Source: a virus | Length of the DNA: 62,857 nt | Virus record (IMG/VR): IMGVR_UViG_3300025009_000105 | Location: 1-62,857 of that record | Direction: 5' to 3' (one strand) | Shown: positions 18,569 through 62,857 of the stretch, piece by piece | Numbering within the stretch: the first letter of the stretch is position 1 | Layout: every line of letters starts with the position of its first letter | Made by a program: the position numbers and the translations under genes | The notes under the pieces: generated by a model | Databases searched by the model: none | What the model was told of the DNA's origin: nothing | What the model saw: the letters and a program-made list of their open reading frames with translations, nothing else

Positions 18569-19039
18569 GTGAAAAAAATCCCATTAACGCAAGGTAAATT
18601 CGCCATTGTTGATGACGTTGATTATGAACGTCTGTCGAAGTTTAAGTGGTATTGCCATTGTGGGTATGCTCGGAGAATGGGCGATGGAAAGGCAATTCAC
18701 ATGCACCGGGAAATTCTCTCCCCGCCTGATGGTTTTATAATAGACCATGCCAACGGAAACAGACTCGATAATCGCAGGGAGAATATACGGATATGCACAT
18801 TCGCCCAGAACACCCAAAATGCAGAGCGCCGTTCCGACAACTCCAGCGGATACAAGGGGGTTAGTTGGCATACAAACAAAAAGTGGAGAACGCAGATTAT
18901 AGTAAACGGGAAAGTAACACACGTTGGCATGTTCTCGAATATCATAGATGCCGCAAGGGCATACAACGAGGCGGCAATAAAATATTATGGGGAGTTTGCA
19001 AAATTGAATGAAATCCCACAGGAGAGTGTGTCATGCTAA
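18569..19039 (+). CDS. HNH endonuclease with AP2-type DNA-binding domain
   Basis: Encodes 156 aa from GTG 18569 (AGAGGAAGC upstream); the N-terminus KKIPLTQGKFAIVDDVDYERLSKF aligns with the relative at 48584 (KEIHLTQGQVTTVDD). HNH core: HMHREIL...IDHANGNRLDNRRENIR. A C-terminal AP2-like module follows (SSGYKGVSWHTNKKWRTQI...GMFSNIIDAARAYNEAA). Typical phage homing endonuclease. Its stop overlaps the start of the sugar dehydratase gene and its last codons supply that gene's RBS. Confidence 0.85.
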   Translation: MKKIPLTQGKFAIVDDVDYERLSKFKWYCHCGYARRMGDGKAIHMHREILSPPDGFIIDHANGNRLDNRRENIRICTFAQNTQNAERRSDNSSGYKGVSWHTNKKWRTQIIVNGKVTHVGMFSNIIDAARAYNEAAIKYYGEFAKLNEIPQESVSC

Positions 19040-19953
19040 CTGGCGAAATCCTTTTGCTTGGCGGAAGCGGAACTTTGGGGAGAGCAATTATCAAGCGCGC
19101 TTTCGATGAAAAGTGGGATTGTAGGATTGCGATTTTCTCAACTGACCCGATGAAACATCACGCCATCCGTTCTGAATATCCAGAAGTCCAGTCAATTATT
19201 GGTGATATTCGAGACTTTACGACACTTTATAATGCGATGTCTGGAAAGGACTATGTTCTGCATCTGGCGGCACAAAAACATATTCCAGACGGCGAATATA
19301 GCTCAATCGACACATTCGGCGTCAACGTCACCGGTTCGCTTAATGTTGCGCAGGCTGCAATGCAATTGAACATTCCGCATGTCTTGGCGATCTCCACGGA
19401 TAAATCCTGCCATCCGGCAAACGCGTATGGCGCAAGCAAATACGCGATGGAAAAAATCTGGCAGGAATATTCCCGTTTGGGGGTGAGAACAAGATTTCAC
19501 TTGACGCGGTACGGAAATGTCCTCGAGTCCACCGGTTCAGTAATCGAAATATGGAACAATGCAATCGAGCGTGGTGAGAAGATCAAGATGGTTGACCCGG
19601 ACATGACGCGTTTCTTTTTATCTCCATCGCAAGCCGTTGATCTAGTACAGCTTGCCGTGAAACTGGATTCGGGATTGATACTCATTCCGAAACTTCCCTC
19701 TCTGTCCATTGGAAAACTGGCAGAGTACACGGTTGGCGAACAGGAAATGGAACTCATTCCCATGCGCCCGGGCGAGAAATTGGACGAGGAACTCCTGACG
19801 CTCGAGGAGACCGCATTCGCCGTTGAATCCGAAAGTTTCTTTTTCCTGCATCCCACCACCACCGAGAGACTGAATAACGACATCCAGCCATTCAACAGCG
19901 CAGGGGCAAAGGAACTGACAAAGGAACAACTCACGGAGTTGCTCAATGGCTGA
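19033..19953 (+). CDS. NAD-dependent sugar 4,6-dehydratase-like (PseB/CapD type)
   Basis: Encodes 306 aa. Extended SDR: ILLLGGSGTLGRAI (NAD loop, residues about 5-18), DIRDFTTL, HLAAQKHIP, and STDKSCHPANAYGASKYAMEKI, where ISTDK and YxxxK are typical of PseB/CapD/FlaA1-type NDP-sugar dehydratases. Acts on a nucleotide sugar in the cytoplasm. RBS AGGAGAG lies within the HNH stop. First gene of the sugar cluster. Confidence 0.75.
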   Translation: MLTGEILLLGGSGTLGRAIIKRAFDEKWDCRIAIFSTDPMKHHAIRSEYPEVQSIIGDIRDFTTLYNAMSGKDYVLHLAAQKHIPDGEYSSIDTFGVNVTGSLNVAQAAMQLNIPHVLAISTDKSCHPANAYGASKYAMEKIWQEYSRLGVRTRFHLTRYGNVLESTGSVIEIWNNAIERGEKIKMVDPDMTRFFLSPSQAVDLVQLAVKLDSGLILIPKLPSLSIGKLAEYTVGEQEMELIPMRPGEKLDEELLTLEETAFAVESESFFFLHPTTTERLNNDIQPFNSAGAKELTKEQLTELLNG

Positions 19954-20665
19954 TTTCCTGGACATCAAGGAGTTCGGGGAAGGCGCAAAGATACCATCCC
20001 CCACTCTCTGCATCGTCCTTGTTACATACGAGCGAACCCCTCTGGCGTTGCGCACTATTCAAGGCGTGTGCGAGAACCTCGACTATCCACAGCGCACCTG
20101 GTATATTGCTGACGACGGAAGTTCGAGAGAACACGTTGATAGACTGGTGGGAGAACTGAAGTCCAGAGGGGAAAACCTGTATGCCATGCACAACCAGACA
20201 TTCGCAGAGCGTCCTTATTGCGGCAGGGGATGGAACCACGCCTTGCGCCGCGCCCACGATCTGACGGACTACGTTCTTTGGCTTGAGGATGACTGGCATC
20301 TTGAAAAGCCACTTGACATCCGACCCTATATGCGCGCCCTGCTGGAACGGGAGGATGTGGGCATGATCTCCATGCGTGGATTATCCAAAGGACTTCGCTT
20401 GGAAGTGGATGGGCATAACGGCATCCATTACTTCAAGGTGTTGCGGGAAGGAGACCGGGATTCCATGGCTTATTCTGGCAACCCGCTTATTCGCCACACT
20501 CGCTACCTGGAGTATGGTTGGTTTTCAAACGTGGAAACGCCCGGAGACATTGAGATCGTGTGCGATCACAATTACAGACACCACTTCGGTCCGAACATCT
20601 GGAGACCCGCCGAGATAAGCGGTTGGGGCATCTGGGGTCACATCGGCAGTTCACGTACATGGTAG
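19946..20665 (+). CDS. Family-2-like glycosyltransferase
   Basis: Encodes 239 aa. CIVLVTYERTPLALRTIQGV (nucleotide-sugar binding strand) and LEDDWHLEKP (metal-binding acidic motif, about residue 113) are GT2/GT-A features. Short C-terminus. It overlaps the dehydratase by 8 nt and precedes a second GT-A protein. Acceptor unknown. Confidence 0.7.
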   Translation: MADFLDIKEFGEGAKIPSPTLCIVLVTYERTPLALRTIQGVCENLDYPQRTWYIADDGSSREHVDRLVGELKSRGENLYAMHNQTFAERPYCGRGWNHALRRAHDLTDYVLWLEDDWHLEKPLDIRPYMRALLEREDVGMISMRGLSKGLRLEVDGHNGIHYFKVLREGDRDSMAYSGNPLIRHTRYLEYGWFSNVETPGDIEIVCDHNYRHHFGPNIWRPAEISGWGIWGHIGSSRTW

Positions 20666-20671
20666 GAGACT

Positions 20672-21394
20672 ATGACACTTCCAACTTTGACAATCGGCAT
20701 CTGTACTTATAAGCGCCCTCATTATGGGATGCTGACGATTAACTGCCTTAAGGGTTGGCTTGGTTATGACGGTCCGCGCAAGTTCCACATTGCTGATGGC
20801 GGCAGTCCACAGGAGGAGATTGATTACTATCTCAAGATCCTCGAAGGCGAGAAGGTGACGGTGGAAGTCACGAACAACCTGGCGGATATGGTCAACTCCT
20901 GCGCCCGGAACGGCGGGGATGTGTGGCTGACCACCCTGGATGACTTCTGCCCACGCTATCCAATCAACATCACGCCCGATGTGGAGTTCCTTATGTCCCG
21001 TGAGGATGTGGGCGTGGTGAGGATGGCGCGGTTGGCGTTCTGGGGAAGCGGGTCTGGAGACCCGGAGACATCCGCCGATCTGTTGCAGTTCCATGGACTG
21101 CACTGGTGGAAGTTGAGTAAGGAGCGTTCCAAGGACGGCTACATGTGCAGCATTGGAACGCATCTGTACCACAGGCGTTTTTGGGATGCCTATGGCGACA
21201 TTCCGTCCTGCGCTCCCAACGTGCCGGGGCAGGCTGAACTGAATGGTGCGGCACGCTTCAATGGTCATCCCGGTCCTGCGGTCGCTGTCCCGATGCGTTT
21301 CGGGCAGGATTCTCCGCATTACCAGGAACCAATTTGGCATCTCGGCATCTGGAGAACGGACGAGTATGCAGAAACGGCAGGGTCCAGACTATGA
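20672..21394 (+). CDS. GT-A fold glycosyltransferase-like protein
   Basis: Encodes 240 aa. TLTIGICTYKRPHYGMLTINC and ADGGSPQEEIDYYL are GT2-type N-terminal elements; TTLDDFCPRYP supplies the acidic motif. Later FWGSGSGDPETSADLLQFHG and DSPHYQEPIWHLG are not typical. RBS AGGAGACT. It overlaps the DegT-type gene (ATGA). Confidence 0.65.
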   Translation: MTLPTLTIGICTYKRPHYGMLTINCLKGWLGYDGPRKFHIADGGSPQEEIDYYLKILEGEKVTVEVTNNLADMVNSCARNGGDVWLTTLDDFCPRYPINITPDVEFLMSREDVGVVRMARLAFWGSGSGDPETSADLLQFHGLHWWKLSKERSKDGYMCSIGTHLYHRRFWDAYGDIPSCAPNVPGQAELNGAARFNGHPGPAVAVPMRFGQDSPHYQEPIWHLGIWRTDEYAETAGSRL

Positions 21395-22476
21395 CGTACA
21401 AAATCTCTCTTTCGGCTGTGAACATTCCAGAGGAGACCTATCCCCTGATGGAGAAGGCTTTGCGCGCCGGCAAGGTGGGGCAAAGCGAATACGTGGAGCA
21501 ATTCGAGCATCTGATCGCAGATTTCGTGGGCTCCAAGTATTGCGTTGCGATCTCCAACGGAACGATGGCGGATGCGGTCGCTGTGGCTGCCATGAAGGAG
21601 AAGTACGGCATCAAGCGAGTGGTGGTGCCTGCCCTGACCTTCATTGCCCAACCCAACTCCGTGCGCTACAACAACCTGGAAGTCGTCTTTGAGGATGTAA
21701 CGGATGACTGGCAGATGGACATGCTGAAGTACGATCAGGAACACTCGTATGACAGCGAAACCCTTTTCTTTATCACAGACCTAATGGGCAGGGTGTCGTC
21801 TCGACCCGCACCCGCTTATCGCTTCATCGAGGATGCGTGCGAGGCTTTTGGTAGTTTTGTCGAGGGCGACAAGTTCTCTGGTACGCTTGGAAAGATGGGA
21901 ACCTATTCGTTCTTTCCTTCCCACACTATCTCGACCGGCGAAGGCGGAGCAATCGTCACGGACGACGTTGAACTTGCCGGTCTGTGCCGTCAGTTGCGCG
22001 CCCATGGTTTCCGTTCCATGTCGCCGTTTGACAAATTCTCCTTCCCGATCATGGGTTTCAATGCCCGGATGACCACCATGCAGGCGGTCATTGGGATTGC
22101 CGTGATGGGACACATCAGCGAGTATATCTACAACAGGCGCAAGATCATGGTCGCCATGCAAGATGCGGTAGGCGGCTTCTATGATCGAGAAGGCGATACC
22201 ATGATCATCCCGCACGGTTTCCCCATCCAGTACAAAACGGAGATGGCAAGAAACAGTGCCATGTTCGAGATATTGGAGTCGGGAATTGAGTGCAGGAAGT
22301 TCTTCTCCTGCATCCCGACCGACGAGGAACCCTACTCAAAGGATAACGTCCTGGAGTTCCCCAATGCAGAGCGTATCGCCCACACCCACCTGTATGTCCC
22401 GTGCCACCAGAACATGACACTGGAGGATGTGGACTATATCGCCAAAGTCGTGAAAGGAATTGGAGGCAGGGTATGA
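21391..22476 (+). CDS. DegT/DnrJ-family PLP enzyme with His for the catalytic Lys
   Basis: Encodes 361 aa. PLP-binding features: NGTMADAVAV, PALTFIAQPNSV, FIEDACEAFGS and YSFFPSHTISTGEGGAIVT. In ordinary family aminotransferases the PLP-binding Lys occupies the position before N-I/L-T-T-G-E-G-G; here it is His178. That change marks RfbH/ColD-type enzymes that use PLP to remove the 3-hydroxyl (3-dehydratases). The likely role is 3-deoxygenation of a 4-keto sugar; a loss of function is the other reading. Confidence 0.75.
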   Translation: MTYKISLSAVNIPEETYPLMEKALRAGKVGQSEYVEQFEHLIADFVGSKYCVAISNGTMADAVAVAAMKEKYGIKRVVVPALTFIAQPNSVRYNNLEVVFEDVTDDWQMDMLKYDQEHSYDSETLFFITDLMGRVSSRPAPAYRFIEDACEAFGSFVEGDKFSGTLGKMGTYSFFPSHTISTGEGGAIVTDDVELAGLCRQLRAHGFRSMSPFDKFSFPIMGFNARMTTMQAVIGIAVMGHISEYIYNRRKIMVAMQDAVGGFYDREGDTMIIPHGFPIQYKTEMARNSAMFEILESGIECRKFFSCIPTDEEPYSKDNVLEFPNAERIAHTHLYVPCHQNMTLEDVDYIAKVVKGIGGRV

Positions 22477-23054
22477 ATCCTACATTTGATGGCGAGACAG
22501 CAGAGACCTGGTTGCGTGGTCTGAATGGAATGAGTGACCACAATGCAAAGCACATACTCTCCACCTTCGCTTATTTTGGATTACCGAAATCAATGCTGGA
22601 TGTTGGCTGTGGGGATGGCACAATGGTCAAACTGGCGCGGTTGCTGGGAGTGGAGGCCTACGGTATCGATCAGTTGGTGCAACCCGACTGGCCTCCGTAC
22701 TATTATTATCGAAACCTCGTGGACGCTTTCAGGCTGGATCATCCCGTAGAGATGGTGCTGTGTCTGGAAGTTGCAGAGCATATCCACGAAACCGCGCACA
22801 GCACATTCATGGATACCATAGTAGAGAACATGGTGCCTGGCATAGGTGCAAGGCTTATCTTTAGCGCGGCGCATCCAGGACAGGACGGAACTGGACACGT
22901 TGCCATGCGCCCAGCAAAATACTGGCGGGAGGAGTTCACCAACAGAGGTCTGACCCACAACCGCATGGACACCATTAACCTTGCCCTTCTGTGGTCGCAC
23001 ATCCAAAGTCCGCTTGGGCATCTCGCCGCCAACTTGCAGGTGTTTCACAAATGA
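22473..23054 (+). CDS. SAM-dependent methyltransferase
   Basis: Encodes 193 aa. SAM motif I MLDVGCGDGTMVKLARLLG, VEAYGID (motif II) and VLCLEVAEHIHE (motif IV region) mark a class I small-molecule methyltransferase, as used on sugars. ATGA overlap with the PLP gene and with the next one. The substrate is presumably a cluster sugar or glycan. Confidence 0.8.
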   Translation: MNPTFDGETAETWLRGLNGMSDHNAKHILSTFAYFGLPKSMLDVGCGDGTMVKLARLLGVEAYGIDQLVQPDWPPYYYYRNLVDAFRLDHPVEMVLCLEVAEHIHETAHSTFMDTIVENMVPGIGARLIFSAAHPGQDGTGHVAMRPAKYWREEFTNRGLTHNRMDTINLALLWSHIQSPLGHLAANLQVFHK

Positions 23055-23356
23055 ACGACACTCTCGCCTTGTTGGTTTTCCTGTTCGTGGTGTTTTTGCT
23101 CCTGCGCTGGAAGTATCATCAGTGGCTTCGGAAGCACGACTGGTGGAACTGGTACAGCAACATCTACTTGAAGTCGTGGCATTGGAAACACTACCGGATA
23201 AGGCGACTTCTGAAAGCGGGTTATGTGTGTGAACATTGCGGAAGGAGACGAAAGCCATTGCAGGTACACCACTTGAGTTATGACGATCTATGGCACGAAA
23301 AGATGGGCGACACGATGGTTCTGTGCGTTCCATGCCACAATAGGATACACCAATGA
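23051..23356 (+). CDS. HNH protein with N-terminal membrane span
   Basis: Encodes 101 aa. Residues 5-20 (LALLVFLFVVFLLLRW) form a clear transmembrane segment. The C-terminal half is an HNH domain: CEHCGRRRKPLQVHHLSYDDLW...TMVLCVPCHNRIH. It has no leader hairpin and is coupled to both neighbours by ATGA, unlike the free-standing HNH genes here. Confidence 0.7.
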   Translation: MNDTLALLVFLFVVFLLLRWKYHQWLRKHDWWNWYSNIYLKSWHWKHYRIRRLLKAGYVCEHCGRRRKPLQVHHLSYDDLWHEKMGDTMVLCVPCHNRIHQ

Positions 23357-24327
23357 TCATTTCGCGCACCCCTCTGCGGGTGAGTCTGGTCGGCGGAGGA
23401 ACAGACACTCCGGCATTCTATGAAAAAGCCCCCGGCGCGGTGGTGAGTTTTGCCATATCGAAGTATATCTATGTATCCGTTAACGAAAAGTTCGACGGCA
23501 CCTTTCGGGTTTCCTACTCCAGGACAGAGAACGAAGCGACAATCGACGGGATACAACACGATCTGGTGCGCAGGGCGCTACAGACCTTCCGAGTTGTATC
23601 GGGTCTGGAGATAACATCCGTTGCCGACATTCCGGGATCTGGAACTGGACTTGGTTCATCCAGTTCATTCACGGTCGGATTGGTCAATGCTCTTGGGCAT
23701 CACCTGCATAAGAACAACCCCAAGGGTGGCGGATTGGCGGAGTTCGCCTACGACATCGAGGCAACCGGACACCCGGAAATCGGCAAGCAAGACCACTACG
23801 CCGCAGCCTGTGGCGGACTGAACCTGTTCCGTTTCAACAAGAAGTCTGTCACCATCAAGCCCGTGGAGGCGGAGGATAGCGACCTGGTGGAATTTGAAAA
23901 GCACCTTGTTCTCCTGTGGACTGGCATCACCCGCCCATCGTCCATTCCGCTTAGAAGCCAGATGAGGAACTTCTCCGCCTTGGATAAAACCATGAAAGCG
24001 GGAATTGAAATGGCTGCGTATGCCAATGAACTGTACAGGCAGATGCAGGCAGGAAACTTTCACATGATTGGCGAGTATCTGCATGAGAACTGGTTGCTCA
24101 AGAAGTCCATCTCGGACGCCATCTCCAACGAAAAGATAGACTGGTTGTACGAGGTGGCAACGAAAAACGGGGCAGATGGAGGCAAGTTGTGCGGCGCGGG
24201 TGGAGGCGGATTCCTTCTATTCCACTGCGACCCGGACGCCCGGGACAGGATCGCCAAGGCAACCGAATTGCGCCGTGTTGATTTCAGGATTGATACGAAA
24301 GGAAGCGACATAATCTATGAAGCCTAA
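23353..24327 (+). CDS. GHMP sugar kinase, HddA-like
   Basis: Encodes 324 aa. ISRTPLRVSLVGGGTDTPAF (motif 1), IPGSGTGLGSSSSFTV (phosphate-binding motif 2, about residue 93) and KLCGAGGGGFLLF (motif 3) are those of D-glycero-D-manno-heptose 7-phosphate kinase (HddA) and related GHMP kinases. Phosphorylates a sugar phosphate with ATP. Best paired with the GmhA-like isomerase at 5.6 kb. Overlaps the next gene by 11 nt. Confidence 0.8.
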   Translation: MIISRTPLRVSLVGGGTDTPAFYEKAPGAVVSFAISKYIYVSVNEKFDGTFRVSYSRTENEATIDGIQHDLVRRALQTFRVVSGLEITSVADIPGSGTGLGSSSSFTVGLVNALGHHLHKNNPKGGGLAEFAYDIEATGHPEIGKQDHYAAACGGLNLFRFNKKSVTIKPVEAEDSDLVEFEKHLVLLWTGITRPSSIPLRSQMRNFSALDKTMKAGIEMAAYANELYRQMQAGNFHMIGEYLHENWLLKKSISDAISNEKIDWLYEVATKNGADGGKLCGAGGGGFLLFHCDPDARDRIAKATELRRVDFRIDTKGSDIIYEA

Positions 24328-25171
24328 ACTGTTGTTTGTGGACGACAAGCCTAGTCGTTGTGAGGATGCCATCAAAAGATACGGGGATGAATACGAAGTT
24401 ATTCTTGCTCATACTGTGGCGGACGCCTTACGTCAAATGAGTGGGAATAACCTGTCGGTTGTCTCTCTCGATCACGACCTGAACGGTCAAGATTTTCAAG
24501 ACCCGGACGAATCTACAAGCGGAATGGCGATCCTCCGCTACCTTCAGAAAACCGGATGGCCTTTCGATCAAAGACCTAGACCGCGTTTTCTGATACATTC
24601 AACGAACCTGTTCGCCGCAAGTGCGATGGTTGACATTCTATGGCAAGGCGGGTTCGATGCAATCTCCCAGCCCTACAACTGGAAGCAGTATCAGCATGGC
24701 GTGGTCGCCGGGGCTTTCGATGTCATCCACCCGGGCTACATCTATCTCCTGCGGGAAGCGAAGGAACTGTGCCATAAGGTCACGGTGCTGCTCCACGACA
24801 AACCCAACCAGGTCTTTGAACTTTCAGACCGCGCCACCGCCTTACTCGCCCTGAAGTATGTGGATGATGTCATACCCTACACAAGCGAGGAAGGATTGGA
24901 CAAGTTGCTGGAAACGCTTCATCCAGATGTGCGCATCGTCGGAAACGACCACAAGGGAAGCACCACGCGTCCAAACATTAACGTCAAGACCATCTACCAC
25001 GACAGGCAACATCTTTGGTCCGCTACGAGGTACAAGAAAATGATAGCAGAGAAAGTTGGCGTTGTTCCGAGATACGGAATACATTATGCGCCTTGTAAAC
25101 ATTGTGGTGTGTTGGTGGACGTTAACGATGACGGGGTTTGCTTTGATTGTTTCAACAAGGGGAAAGAATGA
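24317..25171 (+). CDS. Receiver-like domain fused to sugar nucleotidyltransferase
   Basis: Encodes 284 aa. Residues 1-125 resemble a receiver-like domain of the cyclic-phosphate-processing type: KLLFVDDKPSRCEDA and VSLDHDLNG. From about 128: VVAGAFDVIHPGYIYLLREAKELC is the HxGH-type signature of the HldE/TagD-like nucleotidyltransferase superfamily (with Tyr for the second His), followed by VRIVGNDHKGSTTRPNI and a C-terminal CKHCGVLVDV zinc-like motif. Likely activates the sugar phosphate as an NDP-sugar. The fusion in one ORF is unusual. Confidence 0.75.
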   Translation: MKPKLLFVDDKPSRCEDAIKRYGDEYEVILAHTVADALRQMSGNNLSVVSLDHDLNGQDFQDPDESTSGMAILRYLQKTGWPFDQRPRPRFLIHSTNLFAASAMVDILWQGGFDAISQPYNWKQYQHGVVAGAFDVIHPGYIYLLREAKELCHKVTVLLHDKPNQVFELSDRATALLALKYVDDVIPYTSEEGLDKLLETLHPDVRIVGNDHKGSTTRPNINVKTIYHDRQHLWSATRYKKMIAEKVGVVPRYGIHYAPCKHCGVLVDVNDDGVCFDCFNKGKE

Positions 25172-26094
25172 AAATCCTCGTCTCCGGTGGCGCAGGGTTC
25201 ATAGGCTCCAACACCGTCAAGTTGCTTGCCAAGCGCGGGCACGACGTATTGGTCATTGACAACTTCTCAACCGGCAGGAGCGAGAACCTCAAGAGTTTCA
25301 AGGGCAAGGTGGTCATTGCCGACATCACGGATTACAAGTCTGTGGATGCCGCGTTCTACGAGTTCGGTCCCGATGCGGTTCTGCACCTGGCTGCGCAGAG
25401 TGCCATCACCACGTCCATCAACGACCCGCAGAAAGACCTAGAGATCAACGGGATGGGCACAGTGAACATGCTCCGGGCAGCACAGGCTTTTGAGACAAAG
25501 CGGTTCGTGTTCTCGTCCACATCTGCCGTGTACCGGGAAACCAGTCCGTTGTTCGGCGGAGTGAGCGAGAAGTGGCCTTGCGCTCCCACTTCCCCCTACG
25601 GCATCTCCAAGTTGACCTGTGAACACTACATCCGTCTTATGCACCCCAACCACATGATCTTGCGCTATGGGAATGTCTATGGACGCCACCAGAGACCTGT
25701 CGGACAGAACCAGGTGATCGCCCGGGCGTTGAGCCACTTCATCCACGGAGACGACTTCTTTGTAACCGGAAGCGGAAAGCAGAAACGTGATTTCGTCAAT
25801 GTCGAGGATGTGGCTTACGCCAACCTGCTTGCCTTGACTTCCGAAGTGACAGGCACGTTCAACGTCGCCACTGGCAAAAACCACTCGGTCAACGAAGTGC
25901 TTGCCATCCTGGAACGCCTGTACGATGTGGTAGGATATGAGTGGGAACACACAAACTCCCCTGACCCGCGTGGTGACGTGGCATTGGATGTCTCTGCGAT
26001 CAGGAGAGAACTCGGTTGGAAAGCAGTTGTTTCATTGGAAGCCGGACTGAAGGACACCGCAAAATGGTGGAACAACGAGGAAGCGAAACGATGA
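25168..26094 (+). CDS. NAD-dependent sugar epimerase (extended SDR)
   Basis: Encodes 308 aa. ILVSGGAGFIGSNTVKLLA (residues about 3-21), VLHLAAQSAITTS, FSSTSAVYRE and SPYGISKLTCEHY (YxxxK) mark a UDP-glucose 4-epimerase/GDP-sugar-type SDR. Overlaps its neighbours by ATGA. Exact substrate unknown. Confidence 0.85.
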   Translation: MKILVSGGAGFIGSNTVKLLAKRGHDVLVIDNFSTGRSENLKSFKGKVVIADITDYKSVDAAFYEFGPDAVLHLAAQSAITTSINDPQKDLEINGMGTVNMLRAAQAFETKRFVFSSTSAVYRETSPLFGGVSEKWPCAPTSPYGISKLTCEHYIRLMHPNHMILRYGNVYGRHQRPVGQNQVIARALSHFIHGDDFFVTGSGKQKRDFVNVEDVAYANLLALTSEVTGTFNVATGKNHSVNEVLAILERLYDVVGYEWEHTNSPDPRGDVALDVSAIRRELGWKAVVSLEAGLKDTAKWWNNEEAKR

Positions 26095-26933
26095 GCGCGC
26101 AACTGTTTCAGGGCGACTGCATAGAATTTATGAAAACGATGCCGGAAAAGTCGGTGGATGCGGTGATTACCTCGCCACCGTACAATTGCCGAAAAGACTA
26201 CGGAACATTTCTGGACGAAATGCCGTGGTCGGAATATTATGTCTGGATGGGACATTTGCTCGACGAATTTTATAGGGTATTAGTAGACGGCGGATTAGTT
26301 GCCATAAATATTCCTGGAGTTATCCGGTGGCAATCAGAGCATAAATATTCTGAGACGTGGACAGACTTCGACGCGTCATACAAGACTCACAGAAACGGAG
26401 TAAAGGTAATCGGGAAGGGGAGAATTGAGCCTGTTGGATTCAGGCTGTTTCAAATGATGGAAGATAGAGACAGCCACATACGAGAACCGATTGTGTGGGT
26501 AAAAGGAAGTGAGGGAAACGCCATAAGTAGCGATTACAGAATGGGATGCGATAGCGACCCCTATATGCGACCGGCGCATGAATTAATATTATTGGGAACA
26601 AAAAACCGATGGTTTCATAGAGGCGGCACGGGTAGGCGAGGGAAAGACGCAGTTCCGTTTTTGGACGAAACAAAAGATGTCTGGTTTATTACACCCGAAA
26701 GGAATAAAAACCATCCTGCTGTTTTCCCGATTGAATTACCGTCGCGCTTAATAAAGTTGTTTACCCATGCAAATGACGCACTGGTCTTTGATCCATTCAT
26801 GGGTAGCGGAACAACAGGTGTGGCTTGCGCGCGGTTGGGCCGCAACTTTATCGGTTGCGAGATTGATCCTAAATACTACGCCATCGCAAAGAAACGGATT
26901 TCGGAAACACACAGGCAGGGAGTTCTGTTATGA
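26091..26933 (+). CDS. DNA methyltransferase, N4-cytosine/N6-adenine beta class
   Basis: Encodes 280 aa. SPPYNCRKDYG (motif IV, residues about 28-38) precedes DPFMGSGTTGVACARLGR (motif I, about 233), the beta-class order. Modifies DNA, not sugar. Here it is translationally coupled inside the sugar cluster (ATGA with both neighbours). Recognition site unknown; a host-restriction escape role is likely. Confidence 0.85.
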   Translation: MSAQLFQGDCIEFMKTMPEKSVDAVITSPPYNCRKDYGTFLDEMPWSEYYVWMGHLLDEFYRVLVDGGLVAINIPGVIRWQSEHKYSETWTDFDASYKTHRNGVKVIGKGRIEPVGFRLFQMMEDRDSHIREPIVWVKGSEGNAISSDYRMGCDSDPYMRPAHELILLGTKNRWFHRGGTGRRGKDAVPFLDETKDVWFITPERNKNHPAVFPIELPSRLIKLFTHANDALVFDPFMGSGTTGVACARLGRNFIGCEIDPKYYAIAKKRISETHRQGVLL

Positions 26934-29746
26934 CGGTTAATGTTTATATTAATCCAGATTATGCAAACACGCCTCAGCAGAAGGACAACGGCGGGATTCG
27001 TAGAGTGATTTCTGCCATGGCTGAACATCTGCATAAATTCGATATAAATGTCGTACACAATCCAAACGATGCCGATGTTATTAATAATCACGGCGGCGCG
27101 CTTGTTGAGGTTCGCGGAACGCCAATGGTAAATTCGTGCCACGGTTTATACTGGAGCAGGCAACCTTGGGGCGACGGTTTCTACGAAGTAAATAAACAGG
27201 TAGTAGAATCAATGTGCAGGTCTGACGCATGGACAGCGCCTTCGGATTGGGTTAATCAAGCGATGCGCAGGGGCGGATATTTCTACCCCGTCACGGTGTA
27301 TCATGGGGTTAACCCTGACGAATTTCTCCCATCCAAGACGCCCGGAAATTACATCCTTTGGAACAAGCTTCGCCAAGATTACGTCTCCAATCCAGACGAC
27401 ATGCAGAGACTTGCTGCCAGGATGCAGAACAGGAGTTTCGTCTCCACCATCGGATCTCAAACCCCGAACGTCTCCATCACCGGCGCGATCTCCTATGAGG
27501 CCATGCACAAACTGGTGGCAGAGGCAGGCGTGTATCTCTCCACGGTCCGGGAGACCTTCGGTATTGGAATATTGGAAGCCCTGGCGTGCGGCGTACCGGT
27601 GGCAGCGTTCGATTGGGGTGGCAATTCCGAGATCCTCTCGCATGGCTACACCGGTTATCTTGCTCCCCCAGGAGACTTCGTGGCGCTGGCGGAATGCGTG
27701 GAACGCTGCTTCTCTGAACGTGACAGGCTCTCCAGGAACGCAGTCAGTGACGTCCGGGCAAGGTGGACATGGGAACCGCGTATCGAGCAATACGCCAATA
27801 TATTCAAGCGGGTGCATGACCGCTTCAAGACAGACATTCCGAAGGTCAGTATCATCCTGACCGCCTATAAACTGGACACCTACCTTCCGGCTTGCCTAGA
27901 TTCTGTACAGGCTCAAACCTATCCGAACTTTGAGTGCCTGGTCATCGACGATGCCCAACTCAAGTCCACAGAAACGATTGTGAGGAACTATGCCGTCCGA
28001 GATCCACGCATCCGATACATACCAACTCCTAACAATTTTGGACTGCCCGGTGCTAGAAATTTTGGTTGCTCGCAGGCTAAAGGGCATTACATCCGACATC
28101 TGGATGCTGACGATTACCTTGCACCGAACGCGCTTGAGTTGGAAGTCGCCGCGCTGGACAAGGATCGGGGAACCGATATTGTCTATGGTCATCTGGAAGT
28201 AGTGCGGGAGGACGGGACGCGCTTTCTGGACAAACATCAGCAACCGATACGTGGCGGATGGCCTCCCGAACAATTTGACTGGCACAAGCAGATGTCGCAC
28301 ATGAACCAGATCCCATCCTGCGCAATGGCAAGGCGGGAAGTGTTCGAGAGGGTGGGCGGATACCGGGAGCGCATGAAGCGCAATGAGGATGCGGAGTTCT
28401 GGTGCCGCGCCACTTCGCTTGGCTTGAGGGCAAAGAAGTTCACGCAGGCAGTCACCTACTTCCACCGGGAGCGCAATGACAGCAAGGGCGCATTGGAGTG
28501 GAAAAACGAAGGTGGAGAACCGGACTGGACCGCCTGGTTCCCGTGGAGGGCGGGTGCAGCCAACTCCGAACAGGCTCGGAAACTGGAAGGGCAGATACGC
28601 CTTCCATACATCGTTCCGTTTGGGGCGCAGGGCAAACCCCCGGACGGCATGAAGTTCTGGTACGTCCACGACTACGCTTATCCGGTTGTCTCTGTTATTG
28701 TCACCTGCGGACCCGGGCACAAGCATTACCTGATCGATGCCCTGGACTCTGTGCAAGCCCAGACCTTCCCGGATTGGGAATGCCTGGTGGTCAACGACAC
28801 TGGCGAGGAATGGAATAACGACATTCCGGGCGCGCCGTGGGCAAGGGTGATCAACCTGAAGGGCAACCAGGGAACTTCCAAAGCGCGTAACGCAGGCTTC
28901 CGCTTTGCGCGTGGCAGGTACATCGTCTGGTTGGACGCGGATGATTACTGGTTGCCTTGGTTTCTCGAGAAGATGGTCGGATACGCCGAAGTGAACGATG
29001 GCGTGATATTCTCCGACCTGATCGCCTTACAGGACACATACAAGGTCTATCGGTATGACGAGTTCGACCCGCAACGCCTGAAACTGTCCATGCGCTACCC
29101 GGGTTCATCCGTCCTATACCCCCGTAATGTCGTGCAGGCAGTCTTTGATAAGCAGGGTGGATACGACACCGAGATACCAGGTATGGAGGACTGGGATTTC
29201 CAGTATGCCGTCCACGACCTCGGCTTCTGTGCTTATCATATAGACGAACCGCTATTTGTGTACAGAATGCTTTCATCCACGAAGCGGGAAAAGGATTATA
29301 ATAAAATCGAATTGATACGCGCCTACATGGATAAGAAGTGGAGTGCGTATCGGAAAGGCGAGAAACCATTCATGTGTGGATGCCAGCAACCCAAAAAGAA
29401 ACCTTCGGCGCCCCTTCCGGCAAGCACCCTTAACAGCTCCGGCAACTTCAGCGCGGATGCCATCAAGACCATGGAAACGTCCGACCAGAACCAGATGGTC
29501 ATGTTGGAATACATTGGACCAATGGAAGGCACGTTCTCCATTCGGTCCCGTGTGGACAAGACCAAGATATACCGCTTCGGGAATAATCCCGGGCACAAAG
29601 CCCGTGCGGTGTTTTTGGGAGATGCGGAACTCCTGACTTCCATGATGGATGGTCAGGGCAACGCTTCCTACCGTATCGTCAACCAGGGAGGCGCGGGCAT
29701 ACCCTATGACCCGATTGCTTTCCTCGGACAACCAATCAGTTCATAA
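26930..29746 (+). CDS. Three-domain glycosyltransferase (GT4 + GT2 + GT2)
   Basis: Encodes 938 aa. GT4-like domain (about 1-300) with YLSTVRETFGIGILEALACG (E-x7-E type, about residue 207) and PVAAFDWGGNSEIL. First GT2 domain about 305-560 with VSIILTAYKLDTYLPACLDS and LDADDYL (about 393). Second GT2 domain about 587-800 with VSVIVTCGPG and LDADDYW (about 670). A C-terminal about-85-residue domain follows a CGCQ-proline-rich linker and has YRFGNNPGHKARAVF. It could add several sugars processively. The C-terminal domain is unassigned. Confidence 0.8.
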   Translation: MTVNVYINPDYANTPQQKDNGGIRRVISAMAEHLHKFDINVVHNPNDADVINNHGGALVEVRGTPMVNSCHGLYWSRQPWGDGFYEVNKQVVESMCRSDAWTAPSDWVNQAMRRGGYFYPVTVYHGVNPDEFLPSKTPGNYILWNKLRQDYVSNPDDMQRLAARMQNRSFVSTIGSQTPNVSITGAISYEAMHKLVAEAGVYLSTVRETFGIGILEALACGVPVAAFDWGGNSEILSHGYTGYLAPPGDFVALAECVERCFSERDRLSRNAVSDVRARWTWEPRIEQYANIFKRVHDRFKTDIPKVSIILTAYKLDTYLPACLDSVQAQTYPNFECLVIDDAQLKSTETIVRNYAVRDPRIRYIPTPNNFGLPGARNFGCSQAKGHYIRHLDADDYLAPNALELEVAALDKDRGTDIVYGHLEVVREDGTRFLDKHQQPIRGGWPPEQFDWHKQMSHMNQIPSCAMARREVFERVGGYRERMKRNEDAEFWCRATSLGLRAKKFTQAVTYFHRERNDSKGALEWKNEGGEPDWTAWFPWRAGAANSEQARKLEGQIRLPYIVPFGAQGKPPDGMKFWYVHDYAYPVVSVIVTCGPGHKHYLIDALDSVQAQTFPDWECLVVNDTGEEWNNDIPGAPWARVINLKGNQGTSKARNAGFRFARGRYIVWLDADDYWLPWFLEKMVGYAEVNDGVIFSDLIALQDTYKVYRYDEFDPQRLKLSMRYPGSSVLYPRNVVQAVFDKQGGYDTEIPGMEDWDFQYAVHDLGFCAYHIDEPLFVYRMLSSTKREKDYNKIELIRAYMDKKWSAYRKGEKPFMCGCQQPKKKPSAPLPASTLNSSGNFSADAIKTMETSDQNQMVMLEYIGPMEGTFSIRSRVDKTKIYRFGNNPGHKARAVFLGDAELLTSMMDGQGNASYRIVNQGGAGIPYDPIAFLGQPISS

Positions 29747-34232: not shown

Positions 34233-34790
34233 ATGTCAAAAGTAACCGATAGCGATAAAACGATTGCGAAAGCAATCGACGTTGCGAAGGGAGAGGCGGA
34301 TGATAACCTCGTCCGCCTCTCCACGGGCGTTGTGCTGAAGGTCAAGCAGGCAAACCCCAACGTCCTGATCCGCATAATGACGTCCCAACGGCGTCCCGTT
34401 CCCCCGGTCTATTTCAACAAGGTCATGGGGCGTGAGATGGAAAACCCCGACGACCCCGATTACGTCTCCCGCGTCAAGGCGTGGCAGATGGACTACAACA
34501 ATGGGATGCTGAACGCACTCATTGGATTGGGCACGGAACTGGTCTCCAAGCCGAAGGGAATGCCCGGACCGGACGACGATGCGTGGATCAGGGACTACGA
34601 AGCCCTTGGTCTGCCTTCCATGAAGGACAGCCCTGCGTGGCGCTACATGACCTGGGTCTTGTTCAAGGCTGCGGTGATCGATGCCGACACAGCCGCCATT
34701 GGAGATGCAGTCAAGAAACTTTCGGGCGTCAAGGAGGAGGATGTCAAGTCCGCCGAGACGTTTCCTGGGAGTGACAAAGCGGGTCGGTGA
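34233..34790 (+). CDS. Tail assembly chaperone (gpG-like)
   Basis: Encodes 185 aa. Charged, helical protein upstream of the tape measure. QANPNVLIRIMTSQRRPVPPVYFNKVMGREMENPDDPDY followed by a C-terminal about 50-residue acidic tail resembles gpG-type tail chaperones. It ends in TGA at 34788 while the following frame is open, as in gpG/gpGT pairs. Confidence 0.65.
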   Translation: MSKVTDSDKTIAKAIDVAKGEADDNLVRLSTGVVLKVKQANPNVLIRIMTSQRRPVPPVYFNKVMGREMENPDDPDYVSRVKAWQMDYNNGMLNALIGLGTELVSKPKGMPGPDDDAWIRDYEALGLPSMKDSPAWRYMTWVLFKAAVIDADTAAIGDAVKKLSGVKEEDVKSAETFPGSDKAGR

Positions 34791-35067
34791 AGTGCAGGAA
34801 AACATCACGCGCGTTGAACTGGATAACGCGGTGAGCGCAGGTATTTACTGGCAGAGACTCGGAGAAGGTTTCGTTCCCATTTATGAGGAACAACTTTCCA
34901 GACTGGAGCGCAATATCAGCATGGAGGCGTGGTATCGCATGGAACCCATGGAGCGCGCCATGGTGATCGCCGTGCGGCGTATTGAGAACGCCTCCAAAGG
35001 GCACCAGTCCGAGGCTGAAAGCGCAGCCATCAAGAGGCAGACTGCCATGAGAGGAAAACGCCATTAA
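34771..35067 (+). CDS. gpT-like frame of the tail chaperone
   Basis: Open frame shifted relative to the gpG-like gene, encoding about 98 aa after the overlap (TKRVGEVQENITRVELDNAVSAG). Probably expressed as a gpGT fusion by frameshifting near 34760-34790 (a change to the +1 frame; GTTTCCTGGGAG lies there). GTG 34771 could be an independent start, though SD support is poor. Overlaps the tape-measure start (TAATG). Confidence 0.55.
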   Translation: MTKRVGEVQENITRVELDNAVSAGIYWQRLGEGFVPIYEEQLSRLERNISMEAWYRMEPMERAMVIAVRRIENASKGHQSEAESAAIKRQTAMRGKRH

Positions 35068-48675: not shown

Positions 48676-48694
48676 AATATGACATTCGTCACTA
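48676..48694. promoter_or_regulatory. Operator-like dyad, site D
   Basis: The minus strand reads TAGTGACGAATGTCATATT, 18 of 19 identical to site A (3862-3880). Overlaps the TAG stop of the lipoprotein gene, like site A overlaps the stop of its neighbour. Confidence 0.6.
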
Positions 48695-49270
48695 CTTCCT
48701 GCACAAATACTCATGCCATACCCAACGACTGTCCTCGATCATAGCCCAACCCAGGACGCCGTGCGACATCTCGCGGATCTTTACTTCGGTTCCAATGGGC
48801 AGGACGTACATAATATTGGTTCCGGCAGGCATTCCATAGACAGGGGCATCTATCCCGCAGATGACGTAAACATGGGGGTCATAATCAAGCGGGTTGTACA
48901 CTTCATCCGGGGTGAATTGGCTCTCTGTCAGATAGTTGGCACAGACCCAATGTTCCTGGTTGGAGACATGTGCCCAGGATTGGCACTCGTCAAGGTTGGC
49001 ATCGTAAAGCCAACTGTCCACCAGAACGACGGAGCCTTCCGGGTAAAAGCCAACGTCAAGGCAGGTTACGGAGGGGCAAGTGCGTTGGCGCAGGTCTGTG
49101 GTGACAAAAAACACTCTTGGCGGGTAAGTTGTGACCGTCGAGGTTGGCGACTGTGTTGCAGATAAGGTTGGCAACGGGGTTTCTGAGGGTTGGCGATACC
49201 TGTTTTCCAGAGATGAACAACCAACTATCAAAGCGCCGACCATCAATAGCAGGATAAGATTACGGTTCAT
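48692..49270 (-). CDS. Lipoprotein with SH3-like repeats
   Basis: Encodes 192 aa. MNRNLILLLMVGALIVGC is a lipoprotein signal (Cys18). A Ser/Thr/Pro linker (residues about 30-50) follows, then two SH3-like segments, FFVTTDLRQRTCPSVTCLDVGFYPEGSVV and YVICGIDAPVYGMPAGTNIMYV...GTEV. Such lipoproteins sit outside the cytoplasmic membrane; superinfection exclusion or receptor blocking is inferred. Confidence 0.7.
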   Translation of the reverse strand: MNRNLILLLMVGALIVGCSSLENRYRQPSETPLPTLSATQSPTSTVTTYPPRVFFVTTDLRQRTCPSVTCLDVGFYPEGSVVLVDSWLYDANLDECQSWAHVSNQEHWVCANYLTESQFTPDEVYNPLDYDPHVYVICGIDAPVYGMPAGTNIMYVLPIGTEVKIREMSHGVLGWAMIEDSRWVWHEYLCRK

Positions 49271-49505: not shown

Positions 49506-49716
49506 TTGTTGGCCTTGATCCTTTCCGGCCTTTGCCGATATAACGTACAGACTTCCTGTGCTTGTCTGGAGTGCGCCATACCACTCCTCTAAGTTCGCCA
49601 GTTTTTGCGTTAATTCGCCATTCTCGCCTTGGTTCTTTATCCGTTTTGATTATACTGACAAGATGGGCATTTGCAAGGCGCGGGATTGATTCTGCAAGTG
49701 CCTCTGGCGAAATCAA
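49429..49716 (-). CDS. Basic hypothetical protein, TTG start
   Basis: Encodes 95 aa from TTG 49716, which overlaps the upstream stop (TTGA). Basic C-terminal half (VWRTPDKHRKSVRYIGKGRKGSRPTND). Could bind nucleic acid. The 77-nt overlap with the 81-aa ORF makes one of the two doubtful. Confidence 0.45.
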   Translation of the reverse strand: MISPEALAESIPRLANAHLVSIIKTDKEPRREWRINAKTGELRGVVWRTPDKHRKSVRYIGKGRKGSRPTNDYLFHRNAFEQWKRTHRSDENTDV

Positions 49717-50576
49717 AAAGAAGGCTTGGGCTCCTCGGGCGGTTCGGGATCCTTGTAGATGGCAGGATTGACAAACACCTCTTCTTTACCGGGTTTGTTG
49801 ATGTCGTCCGTATCGTAAGTCGGAGGATAGTGCAATCTTTTGGAAATGGGCGCAACCTTCCAATCCGGGTCCTGATAGTTCATAATCCCGTCTCCATCGT
49901 CATCCTCGAGCATCTGCGCAAGGATGGGATAACCCATGGCTTTTGCGGTCTTGGCAGCCTGCCCGGGACCGGGGAATTGCTTCCTGATCTCCTCAAGGCG
50001 TTGCGACAGTTTCGCCATGCTCTCGATCTCGGCTTGGAAGTCGTTGGTAGTTTCCTGTAATTCGAGACGGGAGGCAATGCTTTTCTGTCGCTTGGCCTCA
50101 GATTTACTGCCTTCATCGATCATCCACCACCAGGCAAGCATGATAGCCTGGGCGCCGGTCAGGATGATCACAATACCCCATAGCAGGGCTGCGTTAATTG
50201 AGATGACGTCCACCAGATAGTCCAGGAAGGCGAGGACAAGGGAGAGCAGGATACCGCCAACTGTGCCAACTGCTGCAATATTGCACTGGCTCTTGTTGCT
50301 GTACTTGCGGGAATGCGGGTACAGGAAGTCCCACCAGAACAATGCCAACACACCGGAGACGATGACTGTGACCGAGGCGAGCAAGATACTGCCGGTCATC
50401 TTGGCGACCACATCGAAAGCGCGCACATCCAGTGAGATGAAGATGATATTGGCTGCGATCAGGGCGAGAGTTGGCACGATCTTGCGCTTGGTCTGTTCCT
50501 TCTTTTCGTGCTTCTGCTTCTCCAGATTGACTTCGGCAGAGCGTTTGTTTTCAGCGAGATCTGAAATTTGTTTCAT
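49713..50576 (-). CDS. Multi-span membrane protein with Ca-binding-like tail
   Basis: Encodes 287 aa. Charged N-terminus (1-30), four transmembrane segments (about 35-150, including LALIAANIIFISLDV and ILLASVTVIVSGVLALFWW), a coiled-coil region (about 160-215), and DDDGDGIMNYQDPD (about 225-240), a calcium-loop-like motif typical of thrombospondin-type or dockerin segments. RBS AAGGAGACCAA lies inside the previous gene. Function is unknown; the topology suggests host-membrane modulation. Confidence 0.65.
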   Translation of the reverse strand: MKQISDLAENKRSAEVNLEKQKHEKKEQTKRKIVPTLALIAANIIFISLDVRAFDVVAKMTGSILLASVTVIVSGVLALFWWDFLYPHSRKYSNKSQCNIAAVGTVGGILLSLVLAFLDYLVDVISINAALLWGIVIILTGAQAIMLAWWWMIDEGSKSEAKRQKSIASRLELQETTNDFQAEIESMAKLSQRLEEIRKQFPGPGQAAKTAKAMGYPILAQMLEDDDGDGIMNYQDPDWKVAPISKRLHYPPTYDTDDINKPGKEEVFVNPAIYKDPEPPEEPKPSF

Positions 50577-50820
50577 TTGGTCTCCTTCGTTATTGAAAGA
50601 ATTGTGCTGTTTTGAAAGAGGGCGTATTTACCAGTTACCTCATTACGGCAACTTGTGAACGAGTCGTTGACTTGGACATACGAACAAACAACAGTTGTTC
50701 CATCAACAAATCTTATAACTCCCCCCCCCCTTCAATACCGACAGTGAAAAGACACACCGAGAACACGATAAGCGCGGCGACAACGAGAATAAACAAAAGT
50801 CCACCAACACGATCGTTCAT
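50573..50820 (-). pseudogene. Membrane protein gene interrupted by a G10 tract
   Basis: ATG 50820 with GAGGAAAAA upstream encodes MNDRVGG, a transmembrane segment (LLFILVVAALIVFSVCLFTV) and then a G10 tract (minus strand, 50721-50730). As read, it hits TAA at 50713 after 35 aa. In the -1 frame the reading is open for another 48 codons (VIRFVDGTTVVCSYVQVNDS...) to TGA at 50573, which overlaps the next start codon (ATGA). One more or two fewer G would restore an 82-aa protein with a transmembrane span and two Cys outside. Confidence 0.6.
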
Positions 50821-51155
50821 TTTTTCCTCACTTCCATTGTCTGAATGACCTGCTTGACACAGGTTTCCGGGTCTTTGCGCAACATCGTTGGCGAGAAGCG
50901 CAGGAGAAGCCAACCGAGCGTGGCGGCGATATTATACTTCTCCAAGTCCCGGTCCATCATGTGCTTTCCGCCACCCGGCGCGCCCCAGGCGTTGCCTTCC
51001 ACCTCGATTGCGACCTTGTAGTCCGGGAACGCAAAATCAAAGCGGTGTTTCCTGCCGAGGTGCTTGTCGAAAGGATATTCCGCCTCGGGCTGGATGAGTG
51101 TGCCGTACACTTTCCAGATGAAAAGGAACTCCCCGGCGCGGTCAGAGTGTTGCAT
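50817..51155 (-). CDS. VSR/DUF559-like endonuclease
   Basis: Encodes 112 aa. HRFDFAFPDYKVAIEVEG (residues about 37-54) has the D...ExE signature of PD-(D/E)xK nucleases of the Vsr/DUF559 type, followed by GWLLLRFSPTML. Phage homologues occur near replication genes. Short length suggests a minimal nuclease. It overlaps the previous and next genes. Confidence 0.7.
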   Translation of the reverse strand: MQHSDRAGEFLFIWKVYGTLIQPEAEYPFDKHLGRKHRFDFAFPDYKVAIEVEGNAWGAPGGGKHMMDRDLEKYNIAATLGWLLLRFSPTMLRKDPETCVKQVIQTMEVRKK

Positions 51156-62800: not shown

Positions 62801-62857
62801 GGGGAGGGGGGTCGCGCGCCGATACGCCTCGGGGGGTCGGGGGGGGGGCGCGCCCAC
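62801..62857. other. G-rich right end
   Basis: Contains several G-runs, including about ten G in a row, and GCGCGC blocks. No gene. The left end begins with CGCG-rich sequence; no terminal direct repeat is visible. May be close to a packaging end or an assembly boundary. Confidence 0.35.

Follow-up and report, generated by a model that had tools for sequence, protein, structure and literature searches.

Results

A small membrane-protein gene is broken at a run of ten Gs

The window analyzed here is the complete 62,857-nucleotide stretch of a viral record (IMG/VR IMGVR_UViG_3300025009_000105). Its minus strand carries, at 50573..50820, a split gene for a small membrane protein of about 81 codons if read through, with the transmembrane (TM) segment in frame 0 and the outer domain in the -1 frame. 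The gene starts at ATG 50820-50818, which is preceded by GAGG/AAAAA, and its 5' half (50731..50820, minus strand) comprises 30 codons that specify one TM helix. Frame 0 reads MNDRVGGLLFILVVAALIVFSVCLFTVGIE followed by GGG GGG GGG GAG TTA TAA and ends with the TAA at 50713..50715, leaving a stub of 35 aa. The glycine codons are provided by a tract of exactly ten Gs (50721..50730, minus strand; zero frame GAA GGG GGG GGG GAG). The -1 frame is closed just before the tract by a TGA (50732..50734) and then runs without a stop through 51 codons, some 48 of which lie past the tract, up to TGA 50575-50573. This 3' half (50573..50720, minus strand) encodes VIRFVDGTTVVCSYVQVNDSFTSCRNEVTGKYALFQNSTILSITKETK, which includes two Cys. 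The overlap of the two open frames spans 16 bases (50731-50716), including the ten of the tract, and the tract with its six flanking bases is the sole place where the two frames can be joined. The initial annotation had reported that the reading from ATG 50820 stops after the tract at 35 aa and that the -1 frame continues for 48 more codons, and we could confirm both statements.

The joined gene is embedded in a minus-strand cluster. Its upstream neighbor (50817..51155, minus strand) encodes a DUF559/Vsr-type endonuclease-like protein (PHROG 503), the stop codon of which overlaps ATG 50820 as ATGA. The downstream neighbor (49713..50576, minus strand) encodes a protein of 287 aa with several hydrophobic segments that matched no known family. 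Its ATG 50576 overlaps TGA 50575-50573, again as ATGA, and its Shine-Dalgarno sequence AAGGAG lies within the 3' half. Since both borders are ATGA overlaps, the joined gene fits exactly between its neighbors. Seven other minus-strand junctions show the same four-base overlap, as had been stated for other gene pairs here, and junction gaps within the cluster (52941-48692) range from -77 to +27. Neither a Sigma-70-type promoter near the locus nor a known RNA family in the window was found. Further along the cluster, 48692-49270 (minus strand) encodes a lipoprotein-like protein with a Thr/Pro/Ser-rich linker, which has a distant look-alike in a related phage (L047:16305-16661, E 0.015).

The tract is exceptional for this genome

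We compared the tract with the background of the contig. At 50730-50721, the G10 exceeds every other run inside the contig, where G/C runs otherwise reach 7 bases at most. Beyond it, a G/C run longer than 7 occurs just once more, as a G10 at 62839-62848 within the last 20 bases. Depending on the Markov order, 0.02-0.18 G/C runs of at least ten bases are expected per window, hence the tract is longer than composition predicts. GGG accounts for 16% of Gly codons, and GGG-GGG was used for none of the 80 Gly-Gly pairs in 30 confident genes. The gene shows one of the features of a contingency gene, a long in-frame homopolymer at which a change of length shifts the downstream part in or out of frame. 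As a separate observation, the right end of the contig (62800-62857, plus strand) is rich in G (G5, G6, G6, G10); this block might fold into a G-quadruplex, or it might be a sequencing or assembly artifact at the contig end.

The 3' half is very probably coding

Codon usage of the 5' half is clearly coding (+0.249 bits per codon). For the 3' half it is equivocal: the score of -0.098 bits per codon lies slightly short of the 5th percentile of real genes and exceeds that of most off-frame stretches, and amino-acid usage is no more decisive. The region is AT-rich (38.5% GC) and lacks a GC3 bias. We then turned to a GC-independent frame model, which relies solely on the position-specific excess of purines, G and A after correction for overall composition, and which tells true from off frames in this phage at an AUC of 0.99; the split gene was kept outside the training set. 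This model gave P 0.952 for the -1 frame of the 3' half, versus 0.023 and 0.067 for the other frames, a result whose weight should be read in light of the model having been applied after the codon-usage tests proved equivocal. Among random open sequences of the same composition, 3.8% reached the coding score of the 3' half (P 0.038), and the probability that one given frame is open over 48 codons in a region of this composition is 0.064. An independent start of the 3' half was rejected, as its frame contains no ATG, GTG or TTG, and the 3' half consequently depends on the 5' half. Frame model and exact tiling together make it very probable that the 3' half is coding. The proposal of a broken gene at 50573-50820 therefore stood, with correct coordinates, coding signal on both sides of the tract and a joined gene that tiles exactly.

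The predicted product is a single-helix membrane protein with a beta-rich outer domain

The read-through product has 81 residues. An AlphaFold2 model made without an alignment contains a helix (residues 2-29, the TM helix of the 5' half) followed by six short strands (mean pLDDT 72.6, pTM 0.41). The earlier description of a joined product with one TM segment and a Cys-containing outer domain agrees with this model and with the two Cys. The protein would thus probably consist of one TM helix and a small beta-rich domain that lies outside, and the few charges beside the helix suggest an N-in, C-out topology. Inspection by eye found no match to the lipobox consensus at the Cys of the TM segment. 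Foldseek searches against the PDB returned mostly Hfq or other small beta-barrels as best matches, at E 0.39 and above, and a best viral match at E 0.033. No significant structural or sequence match placed the outer domain among the Hfq/Sm-like small beta-barrels. The model suggests a small-beta-barrel look, which we take as a fold class and not as membership in a family. Given the same-strand neighbors, a role at the envelope is plausible. From the architecture and the neighboring genes for membrane and lipoprotein-like proteins, our guess is a host-envelope protein made during infection, acting for example in exclusion or envelope control.

Related phages do not carry the gene

No homologue of the joined protein was found in IMG/VR, in INPHARED (tblastn), in GTDB genomes or in the related phage records, and the protein matched nothing in Pfam, PHROGs or PDB sequences. 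The locus had no close match in INPHARED. An exact search with a 28-base flank retrieved no copies with another tract length, near-identical records possibly lying outside that search. Because no homologue was found, the ON length cannot be read from relatives. The major capsid protein, in turn, identified a group of uncultured phages at 49-71% identity; no bacterial genome matched it. The split gene is absent from the related phages found in this way. A relative of the nearby exonuclease is kept in three of them, and the endonuclease-like gene in one.

One related phage (G006) contains, elsewhere in its genome, an uninterrupted ORF of 96 aa (L018:1163-1453) with a TM helix, strands and two Cys. 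Homology to the 81-aa product was rejected, as the local alignment was not significant; in a global alignment the shuffle fraction was about 0.01, mainly when the TM helix was included. The ORF may therefore serve as an architectural parallel only, indicating that such proteins may exist in the group. Another relative (G009) has a G10 at L043:1610-1619 with the same AA-G10-AG borders as the tract in the window. We rejected it as a coding tract, as it lies outside any ORF of at least 60 aa on both strands; it stands upstream of a 211-aa ORF and can pair with a C6 run 30 bases on.

Two further observations were made in the relatives. In G012, six runs of exactly G8 occur on one strand within 6 kb (L044, 2423-8199), some of which have TTGGGGGGGGTCTT in common and lie in G-rich intergenic blocks; the other 19-kb stretch of this genome that we examined contained no G8 runs. 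In G004, the terminase large-subunit match (L012, 3523-6006) falls into two parts about 1 kb apart, the break lying between residues 198 and 199 of the window protein, as if an intron or an inserted gene were located there.

Other features of the contig include a block between the structural genes (19033-29746, plus strand) with sugar-nucleotide, aminotransferase, kinase and glycosyltransferase-like genes, parts of which are conserved in relatives directly after the capsid gene. Such genes might allow the phage to synthesize or alter a surface glycan. Immediately upstream of a 904-aa tape-measure-like gene, two overlapping ORFs (34233-35067, plus strand) resemble a tail assembly chaperone pair. 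In this pair (34233-34790 and the frame ending at 35067), the second frame runs on past CGG TGA after a shift of +1 (or -2), and no separate start for it is evident at the joint.

Discussion

Our analysis reveals a clean break of the reading frame at a homopolymer in a gene that is otherwise ordinary. As a tentative first choice, with a probability of roughly 0.43, we read the tract as a slippage-prone homopolymer that breaks the frame, the gene being ON only in genomes with another tract length. According to this proposal, 50820-50573 would be one gene of about 81 codons interrupted by a coding G10. The assembled run would belong to the wrong length class, giving the TM segment, three glycines, two further codons and a stop, with the outer domain left unmade. 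The run would gain and lose bases through strand slippage during phage replication, virions of another length class would produce the protein in full length, and expression would switch on and off stochastically, as in a contingency gene. Tract length would then vary in the population, the assembled copy would represent a true OFF state and switching would have a selected role. We put this explanation first because ten consecutive Gs in coding sequence should be unstable in replication and because Campylobacter phages provide a poly-G precedent. It is favored by frames that meet only at the tract, by the exact tiling, by a 3' half that is coding and has no own start, by the exceptional G10 with a GGG-GGG pair not used in the confident genes, by the read-through model and by the intact ORF of the same layout in a relative. 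On the other side, the single assembled length fits an error or recoding equally well, the tract is the sole one of its kind in coding sequence of this genome and has no coding counterpart in relatives, no intact allele was found, and the 3' half gives equivocal values for simple codon and amino-acid usage.

The gene might instead be intact in the real phage, with the run miscounted during sequencing or assembly. Homopolymers are a known source of artifacts (PMC8808543), this one exceeds all other internal runs of the contig, the gene looks intact in every other respect and the record is an unreviewed metagenome contig. However, a run of this length is itself expected to vary in nature. Short-read consensus is, moreover, usually right at ten bases given fair coverage, and we consider a miscount rather unlikely. 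Recoding would mean that a single G10 genome makes both stub and full protein, through ribosomes slipping by -1 at G GGG GGG or through slippage of the RNA polymerase. The tract indeed holds, in the zero frame, a slippery heptamer of the type X XXY YYZ (G GGG GGG), both tRNAs would re-pair perfectly after a -1 slip on the run, and the zero-frame stop follows two codons later. Low-level frameshifting on a run of Gs is known from herpesvirus TK mRNA (PMC5009743). Compared with shuffled sequences, the fold comprising the tract is stronger (z -2.85), but it pairs the C/G-biased tract itself, and a search limited to stem-loops found no stimulatory structure beyond chance in the 79 bases after the tract (z +0.16). 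Moreover, no conserved relative shows selection for a slip site and frameshifting is not known from genes of this type, so that recoding appears distinctly unlikely. The three mechanisms named in the initial annotation can thus be ranked in part: programmed slippage lost ground with the lack of downstream structure, and between phase variation and a base-count error the evidence does not decide.

The same sequence evidence would also fit a dead gene, in which the frame break is fixed and no switching occurs. That no related phage conserves a homologue implies that the gene is dispensable in the group. Yet no stop codon interrupts the remainder of the 3' frame, which carries a coding signal, so any break must be recent, and a G10 left in place is expected to go on slipping; we regard a dead gene as improbable. 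Least probable of all, in our view, is that the 35-aa single-TM peptide is a complete gene and that the -1 frame of a 136-base spacer is open by chance. Gaps of more than 100 bases do occur elsewhere on the strand, according to a rough hand-made gene list, and the equivocal codon and amino-acid usage would fit. Against this, the probabilities of an open frame (0.064) and of the coding score given an open frame (0.038) amount jointly to about 0.002, the end of the -1 frame coincides exactly with an ATGA, a fold is predicted for the read-through chain and the junction gaps of the cluster are small throughout. The order of preference is hence an on/off gene, a miscount, recoding, a dead gene and a complete 35-aa gene. 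The evidence sets the last apart better than it separates the other four from each other.

Poly-G switching of a receptor-binding protein gene has been described for Campylobacter phages (Sorensen 2021, Cell Rep 35:109214, as cited in PMC11868660 and PMC9311878). As portrayed in these citing papers, the likeness to the split gene is that a phage reading frame is set by the length of a coding G tract. Unlike here, where one assembled length and a small predicted membrane protein are at hand, tract variation and phenotype were measured there, for a receptor-binding protein of the virion. Campylobacter contingency loci contain coding runs of 7-11 Gs (PMC9311878). The poly-G loci of Campylobacter and Neisseria share the long coding G run with our gene and often lie in surface-related genes; in contrast, they are bacterial, with many tracts per genome and measured switching, whereas we describe one internal tract in a phage. 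The -1 frameshifting of tail chaperones in dsDNA phages likewise offers a perfect slip heptamer with a zero-frame stop close behind, but the split gene is no tail chaperone, and neither a stimulator nor conservation was found. In the tail-chaperone-like pair of this phage, the frames would have to be joined by a +1 or -2 shift, unlike the -1 at the split gene.

Should the break turn out to be an assembly error, it would be a plain warning about homopolymers in viral contigs. If switching is true, the locus would be a second phage case of poly-G control, this time from an unrelated group of phages and affecting a membrane protein that is made within the host cell. A more specific scenario, which we hold to be doubtful, is a phase-variable non-virion membrane protein, in which slippage of the G10 during replication makes bursts mix virions that do and virions that do not place a small beta-rich protein in the host envelope and so hedge bets on a trait of host takeover or exclusion rather than on a tail fiber. 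True switching would imply that contingency tracts in phages also serve traits expressed within the cell.
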